A DNA stretch of 64,000 nt from Halobacillus amylolyticus (GTDB taxonomy: Bacteria; Bacillota; Bacilli; Bacillales; Halobacillaceae), in contig NZ_CP095075.1 of the NCBI RefSeq assembly GCF_022921115.1, positions 3,670,001 through 3,734,000 on the forward strand, given 5' to 3'. Positions 10,959 through 40,343 of this stretch are shown in pieces. Position 1 is the stretch's first letter. Each line of letters starts with the position of its first letter. The notes under the pieces were generated by a model. The model had not been told where the DNA came from and ran no database searches. It saw nothing but the letters and a program-made list of their open reading frames with translations. A program made the position numbers and the translations under genes.

Positions 10959-11301
10959 GGAAGATCTTTAAGGTTCGGGCTCGTTGTGTGGGGCCCTTGA
11001 TTAGAATGAACTATGTACGCTGGACTAGAATTTAGAATTCTAATTATTATTATGCGACTACTCTAATTTGGAATTCTCATCCTAAAACATATTTTAGTTA
11101 GAGAACAATCTTTCCTAGTTAGGGAACAATTAGTTGAGGACGGGAACAATCCTTGGCGCTTGAGGAACAATCTGGAGATCTGTCAATATAGTGGACATTC
11201 ATAGACCGGTATTTGAACCATTCTTTTTCTTCCGCGCGTCCTCTTTCGAGACGCTTGGATGCCTCCGCCTAAAGGAAAGAATCAAAAACCAATTCATTCC
11301 T

Positions 11302-12213
11302 TTAGGCAGAGGACATTCGGTTCTTTTTGAGCTTTTTATCATGGTTCATTTTATAGCTCTTTTCTTTTTCTAACGGAGTTAAATAGTCCAATGTAGAATG
11401 GATTCGTTTTTGGTTATAAAAATTGATGTAAAACTGAATGGCTAGTTTGGCTTCTGCTTTTGTCTCATAAACATGTTTGTACAGGTATTCTTTTTTCAGA
11501 GAGGCAAAGAAACTCTCTGCACATGCATTGTCGTAGGGGTTTCCCTTCCGACTCATACTTATGGTCGCTCCTGCCTCCTTAAGTGTATCTAAATAAGCCT
11601 TAGAACAGTACTGAGAGCCACGATCTGAATGGTGAATCCAACCCGACTTAGGGTTACGAATGGCCAAAGCCTTTTCTAAAGCTTTTAAGCACAGGGTGTG
11701 ATCCATATGATCGTCTAACTGATAACTTATGATCCGTCGGGAAGCAAGATCAATGACAGGATTCAGATATAAAAAGCCTTCTCCTGTGTGAATATAAGTA
11801 ATATCAGTAGCCCAAACCTGGTCTGGGGCCTCTGGAAGAAAGTCACGGTTTAAATGGTTTGAGTGAATGGTTTCATCGTGATCAGAGTCTGTCGTATTGA
11901 TGAACTTTTTAGGTGGTGTGGCATAAAGGTCCAGTTCTCTCATTCGATTCGTCACTTTCTTTTGAGAAACCTCCACCTGATCCACTTCTCGAAGCATAAA
12001 GTGGATGCGAGGGCTGCCGTAACACCCATAATTATCATGATAATGGAAGAGGATCCGTTCATCGATATAACGGTTCCAAGCCTCTCTTTTCGTTTCTTCT
12101 CTGTCCAGGCGATTCAAATAATCATAATAACCAGATTTAGACACACCAAGAACTTGGCACATCCTCGAAATGGTGTGTTCGTGTCGGTGTTCATGAATGA
12201 ACTCGAACTTCAC
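11302..12213 (-). CDS. IS3-family transposase OrfB (DDE integrase domain)
   Basis: A 303-residue protein. An N-terminal helix-turn-helix (RMCQVLGVSKSGYYDYL, about 17-33) is followed by the rve integrase core with the catalytic triad Asp137 (WATDITY), Asp197 (HHSDRGS) and Glu233 (ACAESFF). It starts at GTG overlapping the orfA stop (TAGTG), in the -1 frame of orfA. The active product is expected to be the OrfAB fusion made by frameshifting at 12243-12249. It has no stop codons or indels, so the element is probably functional. Confidence 0.95.
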   Translation of the reverse strand: MKFEFIHEHRHEHTISRMCQVLGVSKSGYYDYLNRLDREETKREAWNRYIDERILFHYHDNYGCYGSPRIHFMLREVDQVEVSQKKVTNRMRELDLYATPPKKFINTTDSDHDETIHSNHLNRDFLPEAPDQVWATDITYIHTGEGFLYLNPVIDLASRRIISYQLDDHMDHTLCLKALEKALAIRNPKSGWIHHSDRGSQYCSKAYLDTLKEAGATISMSRKGNPYDNACAESFFASLKKEYLYKHVYETKAEAKLAIQFYINFYNQKRIHSTLDYLTPLEKEKSYKMNHDKKLKKNRMSSA

Positions 12214-12578
12214 TACTTTTCCTGATTGAAGATGTGCATGGCCTTTTTTAAAATGTCGACTTCCTCCTGGAGCTCTACGTTACTTTTTTTCTCTTTTTCA
12301 TACATTTCCTTGTACTCAGAGGCGGTCAACAGTTGATTCTGTGCTTCTTTTTCTTCCTTCTTTTTTTGGTCACGATACTCCGTCTTCCATCTTTTAAGGT
12401 TACCGTAGGGAATATCGAGTTTCTGACTAAGGTCCGTCATTTTGTGTCCGTCCAATTCCATTAACTTCACAACATAAAGCTTAAACTCAGGGTCATAATT
12501 TCTGTACTTTTGGGTCAATGTGAACACGTCCTTTAATGCTTTGTGATGATTAAAACATGGTTCAATACTTGTGTCCAC
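12213..12578 (-). CDS. IS3-family OrfA with A6G frameshift signal
   Basis: Up to 121 residues with a helix-turn-helix (HKMTDLSQKLDIPYGNLKRW) and a C-terminal leucine-zipper-like region that pairs with OrfAB. The frame opens at a GTG inside the terminal repeat, but a TTG about 40 bases downstream (MTQKYRNYDPEF start) has AAAGGA ten bases before it and is the likelier start. On the minus strand, AAAAAAG (12249-12243) lies exactly in the A_AAA_AAG phase, and the -1 frame is open from there into orfB. That is the standard programmed frameshift of this family. Confidence 0.9.
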   Translation of the reverse strand: MDTSIEPCFNHHKALKDVFTLTQKYRNYDPEFKLYVVKLMELDGHKMTDLSQKLDIPYGNLKRWKTEYRDQKKKEEKEAQNQLLTASEYKEMYEKEKKSNVELQEEVDILKKAMHIFNQEK

Positions 12579-12665
12579 TTTTTATACTAACTCTAAATCA
12601 TGCGAAGTTAAGGACCAATCCCGATTCGTTAGAGAACAATCAATCATTATAAAAGTGAAAAAGAA

Positions 12666-12695
12666 ATGCCCCAGTTAAATGTTTAGCTGGGGCAT
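12666..12695 (-). terminator. Terminator after the GntP-like gene
   Basis: ATGCCCCAG (12666-12674) pairs with CTGGGGCAT (12687-12695). On the minus strand it is followed by a T-rich stretch (TTTCTTTTTC). Confidence 0.75.
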
Positions 12696-21850: not shown

Positions 21851-22271
21851 GGTAATTTATTCCCCCTTAACTGTTTTGCTAACACCTACAAAAGGGGAGT
21901 TGTCCCCCTATGATATATATTATATAGTAAAGTGTTTTATACTCAGGAAAATCCTCAATATTATTAATTTGATAGAAAATTCATGAAGGTATGAAAGGTC
22001 AAGAAGAAACTGCCCGATTCTAACAGGAAGAATAGGCAGTTTATGAGTTAGGGAACAATCTGTTATAGATAAGGAACAATCCTTGTGACTTAGGGAACAA
22101 TCAGATCAGTTAAGGAACAATCTTATATCAGTAGGGAACATTTGGAGATCTGTCAATATAGTGGACATTCATAGACCGGTATTTGAACCATTCTTTTTCT
22201 TCCGCGCGTCCTCTTTCGAGACGCTTGGATGCCTCCGCCTAAAGGAAAGAATCAAAAACCAATTCATTCCT

Positions 22272-23183
22272 TTAGGCAGAGGACATTTGGTTCTTTTTGA
22301 GCTTTTTATCATGGTTCATTTTATAGCTCTTTTCTTTTTCTAACGGAGTTAAATAGTCCAATGTAGAATGGATTCGTTTTTGGTTATAAAAATTGATGTA
22401 AAACTGAATGGCTAGTTTGGCTTCTGCTTTTGTCTCATAAACATGTTTGTACAGGTATTCTTTTTTCAGAGAGGCAAAGAAACTCTCTGCACATGCATTG
22501 TCGTAGGGGTTTCCCTTCCGACTCATACTTATGGTCGCTCCTGCCTCCTTAAGTGTATCTAAATAAGCCTTAGAACAGTACTGAGAGCCACGATCTGAAT
22601 GGTGAATCCAACCCGACTTAGGGTTACGAATGGCCAAAGCCTTTTCTAAAGCTTTTAAGCACAGGGTGTGATCCATATGATCGTCTAACTGATAACTTAT
22701 GATCCGTCGGGAAGCAAGATCAATAACAGGATTCAGATATAAAAAGCCTTCTCCTGTGTGAATATAAGTAATATCAGTAGCCCAAACCTGGTCTGGGGCC
22801 TCTGGAAGAAAGTCACGGTTTAAATGGTTTGAGTGAATGGTTTCATCGTGATCAGAGTCTGTCGTATTGATGAACTTTTTAGGTGGTGTGGCATAAAGGT
22901 CCAGTTCTCTCATTCGATTCGTCACTTTCTTTTGAGAAACCTCCACCTGATCCACTTCTCGAAGCATAAAGTGGATGCGAGGGCTGCCGTAACACCCATA
23001 ATTATCATGATAATGGAAGAGGATCCGTTCATCGATATAACGGTTCCAAGCCTCTCTTTCCGTTTCTTCTCTGTCCAGACGATTCAAATAATCATAATAA
23101 CCAGATTTAGACACACCAAGAACTTGGCACATCCTCGAAATGGTGTGTTCGTGTCGGTGTTCATGAATGAACTTGAACTTCAC
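22272..23183 (-). CDS. IS3-family transposase OrfB, copy B
   Basis: A 303-residue DDE transposase with three substitutions relative to copy A (Glu4 to Lys, Lys42 to Glu, and Arg to Gln near the C-terminus). Asp137, Asp197 and Glu233 are conserved. It starts at GTG overlapping the orfA stop, and is expected to be produced as OrfAB by -1 frameshifting. Confidence 0.95.
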   Translation of the reverse strand: MKFKFIHEHRHEHTISRMCQVLGVSKSGYYDYLNRLDREETEREAWNRYIDERILFHYHDNYGCYGSPRIHFMLREVDQVEVSQKKVTNRMRELDLYATPPKKFINTTDSDHDETIHSNHLNRDFLPEAPDQVWATDITYIHTGEGFLYLNPVIDLASRRIISYQLDDHMDHTLCLKALEKALAIRNPKSGWIHHSDRGSQYCSKAYLDTLKEAGATISMSRKGNPYDNACAESFFASLKKEYLYKHVYETKAEAKLAIQFYINFYNQKRIHSTLDYLTPLEKEKSYKMNHDKKLKKNQMSSA

Positions 23184-23548
23184 TACTTTTCCTGATTGAA
23201 GATGTGCATGGCCTTTTTTAAAATGTCGACTTCCTCCTGGAGCTCTACGTTACTTTTTTTCTCTTTTTCATACATTTCCTTGTACTCAGAGGCGGTCAAC
23301 AGTTGATTCTGTGCTTCTTTTTCTTCCTTCTTTTTTTGGTCACGATACTCCGTCTTCCATCTTTTAAGGTTACCGTAGGGAATATCGAGTTTCTGACTAA
23401 GGTCCGTCATTTTGTGTCCGTCCAATTCCATTAACTTCACAACATAAAGCTTAAACTCAGGGTCATAATTTCTGTACTTTTGGGTCAATGTGAACACGTC
23501 CTTTAATGCTTTGTGATGATTAAAACATGGTTCAATACTAGTGTCCAC
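23183..23548 (-). CDS. IS3-family OrfA, copy B
   Basis: Identical at protein level to copy A. The helix-turn-helix, the coiled-coil C-terminus and the A6G slippery heptamer (23213-23219) are all retained, so the element appears intact. The same uncertainty applies between the terminal-repeat GTG and the internal TTG start. Confidence 0.9.
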   Translation of the reverse strand: MDTSIEPCFNHHKALKDVFTLTQKYRNYDPEFKLYVVKLMELDGHKMTDLSQKLDIPYGNLKRWKTEYRDQKKKEEKEAQNQLLTASEYKEMYEKEKKSNVELQEEVDILKKAMHIFNQEK

Positions 23549-23678
23549 TTTTTATACTAACTCTACATTCACCTTGAGAACGGGAACAATCCAAGACTTT
23601 TAATGCTATTTTAGTGTGACCCAAATGTGGCTGTTAGAGAGGTGTGTCCTCGTGTTAGCTAGGTTGCCGTCACCTCTA

Positions 23679-40097: not shown

Positions 40098-40179
40098 TTG
40101 CGTTATTATCTTCAACTTCAACGGGGAGGGAACGACTGCCCCGTAGCCATTTTCAGTAAGCTGAGTTTGACTAGATATA

Positions 40180-40214
40180 TAGAGTCCATAAACTGGCAAT
40201 GGACTCTATTTTAT
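40180..40214 (+). terminator. Terminator after the zinc-ribbon gene pair
   Basis: TAGAGTCCAT (40180-40189) pairs with ATGGACTCTA (40199-40208), followed by TTTTATT. Confidence 0.8.
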
Positions 40215-40218
40215 TGTG

Positions 40219-40343
40219 AAAAAACGTTAAAGAACAATCCCGGTGAGATAGGGAACAATGATGCCGAGATAGGGACCAATGACAGCGCGTTAGCGAACAA
40301 TCCTAGAAGATAGGGACCAATGACAGAACGTTAAGGAACAATC
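40219..40343. repeat. 21-nt repeat array C (six units, uninterrupted)
   Basis: Six units end at 40239, 40260, 40281, 40302, 40322 and 40343. All are 21 nt except the fifth (20 nt). The motif is TTAGGGAACAATC or TAGGGACCAATG, with a variable first part. It lies between the zinc-ribbon gene terminator and the promoter of the next operon. This is the only array of the GGGAACAATC type here without an IS. Confidence 0.85.

Follow-up and report, generated by a model that had tools for sequence, protein, structure and literature searches.

In REPtrons, which combine a TnpA-REP transposase (REP-associated tyrosine transposase, RAYT) with repetitive extragenic palindromic (REP) sequences, bacterial interspersed mosaic elements (BIMEs), or REP doublets (REPINs), the enzyme and its repeat are described as coevolving (PMC8266576). 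Dispersed intergenic repeats can be insertion targets, as described for the insertion sequences (ISs) ISPpu9, ISPpu10, ISRm22, and others (PMC1525189). Here we analyse three arrays of phased direct repeats, A, B, and C, in a 64,000-nucleotide (nt) stretch of the Halobacillus amylolyticus genome (the window), and the NERD-domain genes that arrays of this kind accompany. A nuclease-like gene, probably coding for a DNA-binding protein, with its own repeat both beside it and dispersed elsewhere apparently represents a system that is widespread and has not been described. We consider it probable that the arrays are phased binding sites of cognate NERD proteins, which together would form a REPtron-like system of unrelated parts, with arrays occasionally copied as modules.

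The window arrays are defined by the phasing of their units. The 18 units that the original prediction assigned to three loci were all recovered at their places on the forward strand. Array A comprises units 1-4 at 11090..11172 (cores 11098-11110, 11119-11131, 11139-11151, and 11160-11172) and units 5-6 at 12600..12641 (cores 12608-12620 and 12629-12641). Array B comprises units 1-5 at 22040..22142 (cores 22048-22060, 22069-22081, 22090-22102, 22110-22122, and 22131-22142) and unit 6 at 23571..23591 (core 23579-23591). The six units of array C are unbroken at 40219..40343 (cores starting at 40227, 40248, 40269, 40290, 40310, and 40331). Arrays A and B had been described as 1.5-kb arrays of six units each; the unit count stands, while the length does not, each being a six-unit array of ~125 bp split by a 1,423-bp IS3-family insertion, which the original prediction does not mention. 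Once the IS and a single duplication are taken out, the steps between units are 21, 20, 21, 21, and 21 nt in A; 21, 21, 20, 21, and 21 nt in B; and 21, 21, 21, 20, and 21 nt in C, giving one 20-nt step in each. Across the window, the 13-nt motif alone (≤3 mismatches) has 31 matches, compared with 25.4 ± 5.0 in shuffled sequence. The phased arrays A, B, and C have chain scores of 18, 21, and 18; the best of 60 two-base-block shuffles per array reach 9, 10, and 8, respectively (the detector added a weak seventh unit to array A). The signal thus lies in the phasing, since single 13-mers do not exceed chance while phased arrays far exceed their shuffles.

Arrays of this type form several families in the genome. 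We searched the H. amylolyticus genome (G000; chromosome contig C1) for a two-unit pattern of core 1, the TTAGGGAACAATC family, and found 25 matches against none for the reversed control. Together with the chain scores, this bears out the original expectation that the motif occurs above chance frequency. All but one of the matches (24/25) fall in eight core-1 arrays, and the other (C1:1040192) lies outside any recognised array. The genome therefore holds at least eight core-1 arrays, of which one has five units and the others six. A sequence-only profile built from nine arrays, among them these eight, has 24 matches in this genome and, at E≤0.01, matches 18 of the 61 genomes, although the weakest of these matches may be due to chance. 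Many weaker matches in H. amylolyticus belong to a second family, core 2, with a core like TTTGGGNAGAATC and 16 arrays when IS-split ones are included. A third family (core 4, TGTGCAATTA), searched for in this genome only, has 15 pattern matches at 13 places, compared with 0 for the control; one of these places adjoins its NERD gene. By eye, the spacer ends of core-4 arrays (L239-L250) often alternate between ATTT-C and ATTA-T, a hint of a two-unit sub-period of ~41 nt.

Arrays lie beside NERD-domain genes. The probable partner of the window arrays is a gene elsewhere in the chromosome, at C1:1597970-1598971, for a 334-amino-acid (aa) protein, with one core-1 array beginning at its stop codon. 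Under the binding model, NERD protein P0001 would recognise GGGAACAAT cores. Two H. amylolyticus proteins match the NERD-domain family (PF08378) at 71.5 bits (the 334-aa protein) and 71.1 bits, against a cut-off of 22.1. A second NERD gene, with 55% identity to that of the 334-aa protein, is followed by a core-2 array that the IS has split (C1:2.273 Mb). NERD homologues occur in at least 50 of the 61 genomes searched, H. amylolyticus included, often in several copies, some of them broken. We took 86 NERD loci from among the homologue matches listed, which favour long matches, and found that 74 have an array in their flanking sequence (520 bp upstream and 420 bp downstream), using a score cut-off of 11 (the highest of 1260 block shuffles scored 10). 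The raw count is 56 loci with a downstream array, 36 with an upstream array, and 18 with both. Upstream “arrays” at L076 and L077, of GAGGAAGAAG type, resemble coding sequence rich in Glu; they were excluded from later sets, leaving 34/86 loci with an upstream array; the total of 74 is unaffected because both loci also carry downstream arrays. Weak calls at L284, L311, and L095 may be false. No array was found at 19 orthologues of the 473-aa gene beside array A or at 19 cysteine-desulfurase homologues, control loci that are homologous within each set and so not fully independent, one of them (L265) with only ~100 bp downstream. A wider sample of 299 genomes includes 14 with a NERD homologue at E≤1e-20. 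It contributed 19 further loci, with arrays at 5/9 of those matching into the C-terminal part and at 0/10 of those matching the NERD part only.

Arrays near NERD genes share the geometry of those in the window. With the two Glu-rich false calls removed, 90 arrays have between 4 and 20 units. The proposed equality of unit number at six therefore survives as the commonest value (25/90 here; seven of the eight core-1 arrays) and fails as a constant. In a search that admitted steps of 19-23 nt, 21 nt is the length of 381 of the 603 steps and 20 nt that of 196; phase is kept outside the window, as the original prediction supposed. Many downstream arrays start at the NERD stop codon or within ~20 nt of it. 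Where arrays flank a gene on both sides, the same core is found on both sides at 16/16 loci, directly oriented at 14 and inverted at 2. Their core-match scores range from 7 to 13, whereas 240 mismatched pairs average 1.8 (95th percentile, 4; highest, 8). One upstream array (L071, G000 C1:2443488-2444438) has ten 21-nt units, most of them identical (GCCGATAAAAGCGGAGTGAGC), and is possibly young.

That the core covaries with the C-terminal part of the NERD protein is well supported by computation; the signal lies mainly in the winged-helix region, and none is seen for the nuclease-like domain. The predicted parts of the protein are a nuclease-like domain of PD-(D/E)XK type, a zinc ribbon, and, at the C-terminus, a winged helix. 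In the structure model (predicted local distance difference test score, pLDDT, 95.7), helices span residues 263-274, 281-288, and 293-303, with a strand at 315-317. Across 35 sequences, D77 and K92 are invariant and E90 nearly so; C236, C239, and C253 are likewise invariant, and C256 nearly so. Pfam returned NERD plus sub-threshold matches only for the two H. amylolyticus proteins, with neither an HuH (Y1) nor a ToxN match. A PDB sequence-profile search found no meaningful match and Foldseek found none at E≤0.001; the nearest folds include restriction nucleases and ancillary nucleases of clustered regularly interspaced short palindromic repeats (CRISPR) systems. Mantel tests on 73 NERD-core pairs give a correlation of 0.282 between core and C-terminal part, and of 0.236 when the N-terminal part is partialled out (both 0/1000 permutations); the reverse partial correlation is 0.034 (198/1000). 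Without the broken copies L070 and L089 and without close pairs (58 pairs left), the partial correlation is 0.266 (0/1000). In this smaller set, the winged-helix region alone gives 0.296 (0/1000) and the zinc-ribbon part 0.102 (19/1000). For example, L039 and L085 are 46% identical overall, share the sequence SRKVAW(K/R)LL, and both have a TTAGGGAACAAT-like core. The 73 pairs provide a ready natural set for learning how the C-terminal domain reads DNA.

The two cores that we tested across 61 genomes hardly occur outside the genome that carries their NERD gene, a cognate specificity that is well supported by computation. A core pair pattern from G026 has 28 matches in that genome and 0 in the 60 others. 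The G055 core has 32 matches in G055 and none in 58 other genomes; its remaining matches are in G052 (11, of which 10 belong to a single pure tandem tract) and G027 (1). The G052 tract (C1:3244770-3244978) is a pure tandem of the 20-nt unit TCGCTGATAAATCCAGTCTT. Core 1 is less private, being carried by several Halobacillus relatives and by two genomes of another genus. We show that NERD genes next to proA have five cores in five genomes, the units of each array having changed together: TTAGGGAACAATC in H. amylolyticus, TTATTTTAGAATCC in G005, an AGAATTCGAC type in G044, TTAGGGCACTTT in G049, and, beside a broken NERD copy, TAGGGCGCTA in G052. Here, proA was identified by NCBIfam in H. amylolyticus, and the other four are 81-83% identical over the last 200 residues.

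Some arrays appear to have been copied whole. In G055, spacers compared in register are 84% identical between L221 and L222 and 83% identical between L219 and L220. Each alignment is the best of 120 unit orders, and these two pairs are the best of 91 (median 0.61), with both flanks no more alike than in 200 shuffles. Such whole-module copies at unrelated sites fit the original suggestion of substrates for a mobile-repeat system. A pair in H. amylolyticus (L248 and L249) has 82% spacer identity, with 4/120 orders at least as good; its left flanks are also alike (0/200 shuffles), so it may be a segmental duplication. The nearly pure tandem arrays, upstream of L071 and in G052, suggest that arrays may begin as tandem duplications of one site.

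Other arrays are absent, degenerate, or retained at orthologous places. By eye, array A is absent at the orthologous place in G007, G006, and G008; at that of array B, G007 shows two degenerate units and G008 shows none. Near both of these places in G007 (L252 and L321) lie short remnants of another core, which is GTTAGG.CG.TATC-like. Arrays persist beside an orthologous 159-aa gene, presumably rlmH, in H. amylolyticus, G007, and G008 (95% and 87% identical). Across eight orthologous NERD-array pairs, 393/419 core bases are kept, compared with 311/369 spacer bases (p=1.6e-5).

Computation thus supports the association, the cognate specificity, the C-terminal covariation, some copying, and the IS targeting described below. 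Arrays A, B, and C would be dispersed copies of the site array of the NERD protein encoded at C1:1597970-1598971. Its winged helix may read the ~10-13-nt core of each unit, and the 20-21-nt step would set successive sites on one face of the helix, such that several NERD molecules could load side by side. Their nuclease domains might then act at or near the array. The original idea of protein-binding arrays fits the cognate NERD genes and the covariation of the core with the C-terminal winged-helix part. An array and its cognate NERD gene would behave as a REPtron-like element: whole arrays may occasionally be copied as modules into intergenic DNA and would otherwise pass down vertically, gaining and losing entire units, with drifting spacers and conserved cores. 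The core also serves as the preferred, oriented target of a separate element of the IS3 family. We infer binding, cleavage, and NERD-driven copying from this pattern. More tentatively, the NERD nuclease, with its zinc ribbon and winged helix, might itself mobilise or copy its own phased arrays in Bacillaceae and their relatives, with an own core in each lineage. Lineage-specific cores read by the recognition helix would allow several independent nuclease-array systems within one chromosome. If this holds, repeats would be spread by a mechanism based on neither HuH, DDE, nor RNA guidance. Unexplained intergenic repeats and little-understood nuclease-like genes would be joined in one system, and many arrays would gain a testable partner.

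A host-serving DNA-binding role is the main rival to NERD-driven mobility, although we regard it as unlikely. NERD would then be a domesticated DNA-bound factor, such as a regulator, repair, or nucleoid protein, and the arrays its host-serving sites, spread and shrunk by recombination and slippage rather than mobilised by NERD. The association and covariation apply equally to this explanation, and the greater conservation of cores than spacers and the retention of arrays beside the 159-aa gene in three genomes speak for it. Furthermore, a terminator-like hairpin, read by eye, adjoins each window array: 3' of array A at 12667..12694, directly before array B at 22007..22042, and, with a T-run, before array C at 40179..40209. 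A hairpin like that before array B also occupies the orthologous position in both G007 and G008, in which this array has collapsed or is missing. Against a host-serving role, the arrays show no orientation bias to neighbouring genes, core turnover next to proA has produced five cores in five genomes, and array presence varies among congeneric species. NERD copies are also numerous, with several broken, and their nuclease-like active-site motif is kept.

Improbable, in our view, is a defence or self-recognition system, in which arrays would hold or direct the NERD nuclease, as a sink or self mark, and the nuclease would attack DNA that lacks or carries certain sites. NERD proteins do match the anti-phage proteins PglW and MAD6 weakly, and the nearest folds include restriction and CRISPR-ancillary nucleases. 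However, those matches span the NERD region and, where a curated cut-off exists, score far short of it, and most cores lack the palindromic form of a restriction-like site, ACGCGT at L108 being an exception.

An RNA system, in which the repeats are transcribed as in type III toxin-antitoxin loci or 3' untranslated-region regulators, is very improbable. Many downstream arrays start close enough to the NERD stop codon that they could be co-transcribed. This reading is countered by dispersed arrays without orientation bias, by upstream arrays at 34 of the NERD loci, by unremarkable folding of A, B, and C (z of -1.35, +1.25, and -1.61), and by the lack of an Rfam match at gathering score in the window. 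Type III toxin-antitoxin loci carry RNA repeats upstream of a ToxN-like toxin; here, Pfam finds no ToxN, folding is unremarkable, and arrays are, by raw count, more often downstream (56) than upstream (36). Chance or functionless tandem duplication, which could appeal to the few nearly pure tandem arrays (upstream of L071; G052 C1:3244770-3244978), is scarcely credible and already contradicted by the association (74/86 vs 0/38 controls), the dispersal of cognate cores in the same genome, and the core-protein covariation.

Array placement gives little support to the suggestion that these are chromosome-organisation sites. Relative to flanking genes, 37 arrays divide 14/10/7/6 among four arrangements. 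Relative to replication, 6/8, 6/16, and 11/13 arrays of the three cores have leading-strand orientation. For this comparison, the replication origin (~2.8 Mb) and terminus (~0.6 Mb, both in contig coordinates of the H. amylolyticus chromosome) were estimated by GC skew and coding strand in 20 samples and the window. A role akin to Ter sites or FtsK-orienting polar sequences (KOPS), or in macrodomain organisation, was rejected on this mixed orientation. Core-4 arrays cluster, with 8/13 within 250 kb (C1:3.08-3.33 Mb; 0/2000 random placements), and 10/11 pattern places in G026 lie within C5:224855-433903; clustering of core-1 and core-2 arrays is not significant. Local spread seems a likelier explanation for the clustering than a macrodomain. 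A coding repeat (21 nt being seven codons) was likewise rejected because 20-nt steps break the frame. CRISPR arrays have near-identical repeats and unique spacers of similar or greater length; the arrays here have degenerate 10-13-nt cores, 7-8-nt spacers, and 20-21-nt steps.

The element that interrupts arrays A and B belongs to the IS3 family, as shown by an OrfA helix-turn-helix domain, an OrfB integrase core, inverted ends (similar by eye), and a short target duplication. The copy in array A (1423 bp, 11173..12595, reverse strand) is inserted at the AATC end of unit 4, with the duplicated AATC at 11169..11172 and 12596-12599. Its open reading frames (ORFs), both on the reverse strand, are ORF B (11302..12213; 303 aa; integrase core, rve, PF00665) and ORF A (12213..12578; 121 aa; HTH_Tnp_1, PF01527). 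The second copy (22143..23565, reverse strand) is inserted in unit 5 of array B at CATT, duplicated at 22139..22142 and 23566-23569, and carries ORF B (22272..23183; 303 aa) and ORF A (23183..23548; 121 aa) on the same strand. The two copies are identical at 1417/1423 bases, and OrfB matches NF033516 at 5.4e-97. Insertion of this element in the core has split arrays A and B. Besides one fragment, the genome holds nine full copies, eight of which have a 4-bp target duplication. Seven of the nine lie inside core-1 or core-2 arrays, in one orientation and with an insertion point within ~2 bases in the core; by area, the probability of seven out of nine in arrays is ~5e-21, assuming 25 arrays of 126 bp. 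An eighth copy lies at a core-like TTTGGACCAAAT site, and the ninth is near no recognised array. No full copy was found in the core-4 arrays listed, and for this reason the element seems to target the core sequence rather than arrays in general. Such targeting accounts for a strong IS hot spot. REP-targeting elements such as ISPpu9, ISPpu10, and ISRm22 likewise insert specifically in dispersed intergenic repeats (PMC1525189). Unlike those, the element here is of the IS3 family and enters non-palindromic phased direct-repeat arrays, with seven co-oriented insertions at a near-fixed unit position.

In the open-access literature, which omits most subscription papers, we found neither a link between NERD genes and repeat arrays nor a comparable system. 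The TAACTGA repeats of Beggiatoaceae are likewise direct repeats between genes, two to six per set; as described in that source, however, they are heptamers, located mostly just upstream of start codons, and the only proteins named for them are candidate RNA-binding proteins (PMC4679880). REPtrons are closer, their enzyme gene being likewise flanked by cognate repeats that are also dispersed between genes (PMC8266576). They differ in their parts. REPtrons encode an HuH (Y1) transposase-like protein that cleaves and rejoins its own repeats, whereas the proteins here have a NERD domain and a predicted winged helix. REPtron repeats are palindromic hairpins of 20-50 nt that follow a tetranucleotide, most often GTAG, whereas those here are phased direct repeats with unremarkable folding. 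Several NERD genes with different cores also coexist in one genome. Membership thus fails on enzyme family and repeat structure. REPtrons are nevertheless the nearest in logic: cognate repeats stand next to the gene (74/86 loci, with a shared core at 16/16 two-sided loci), and the same repeats are dispersed in intergenic DNA. If NERD proteins do drive the copying, they would provide a new route for the spread of bacterial repeats and a second, independent case of REPtron logic.
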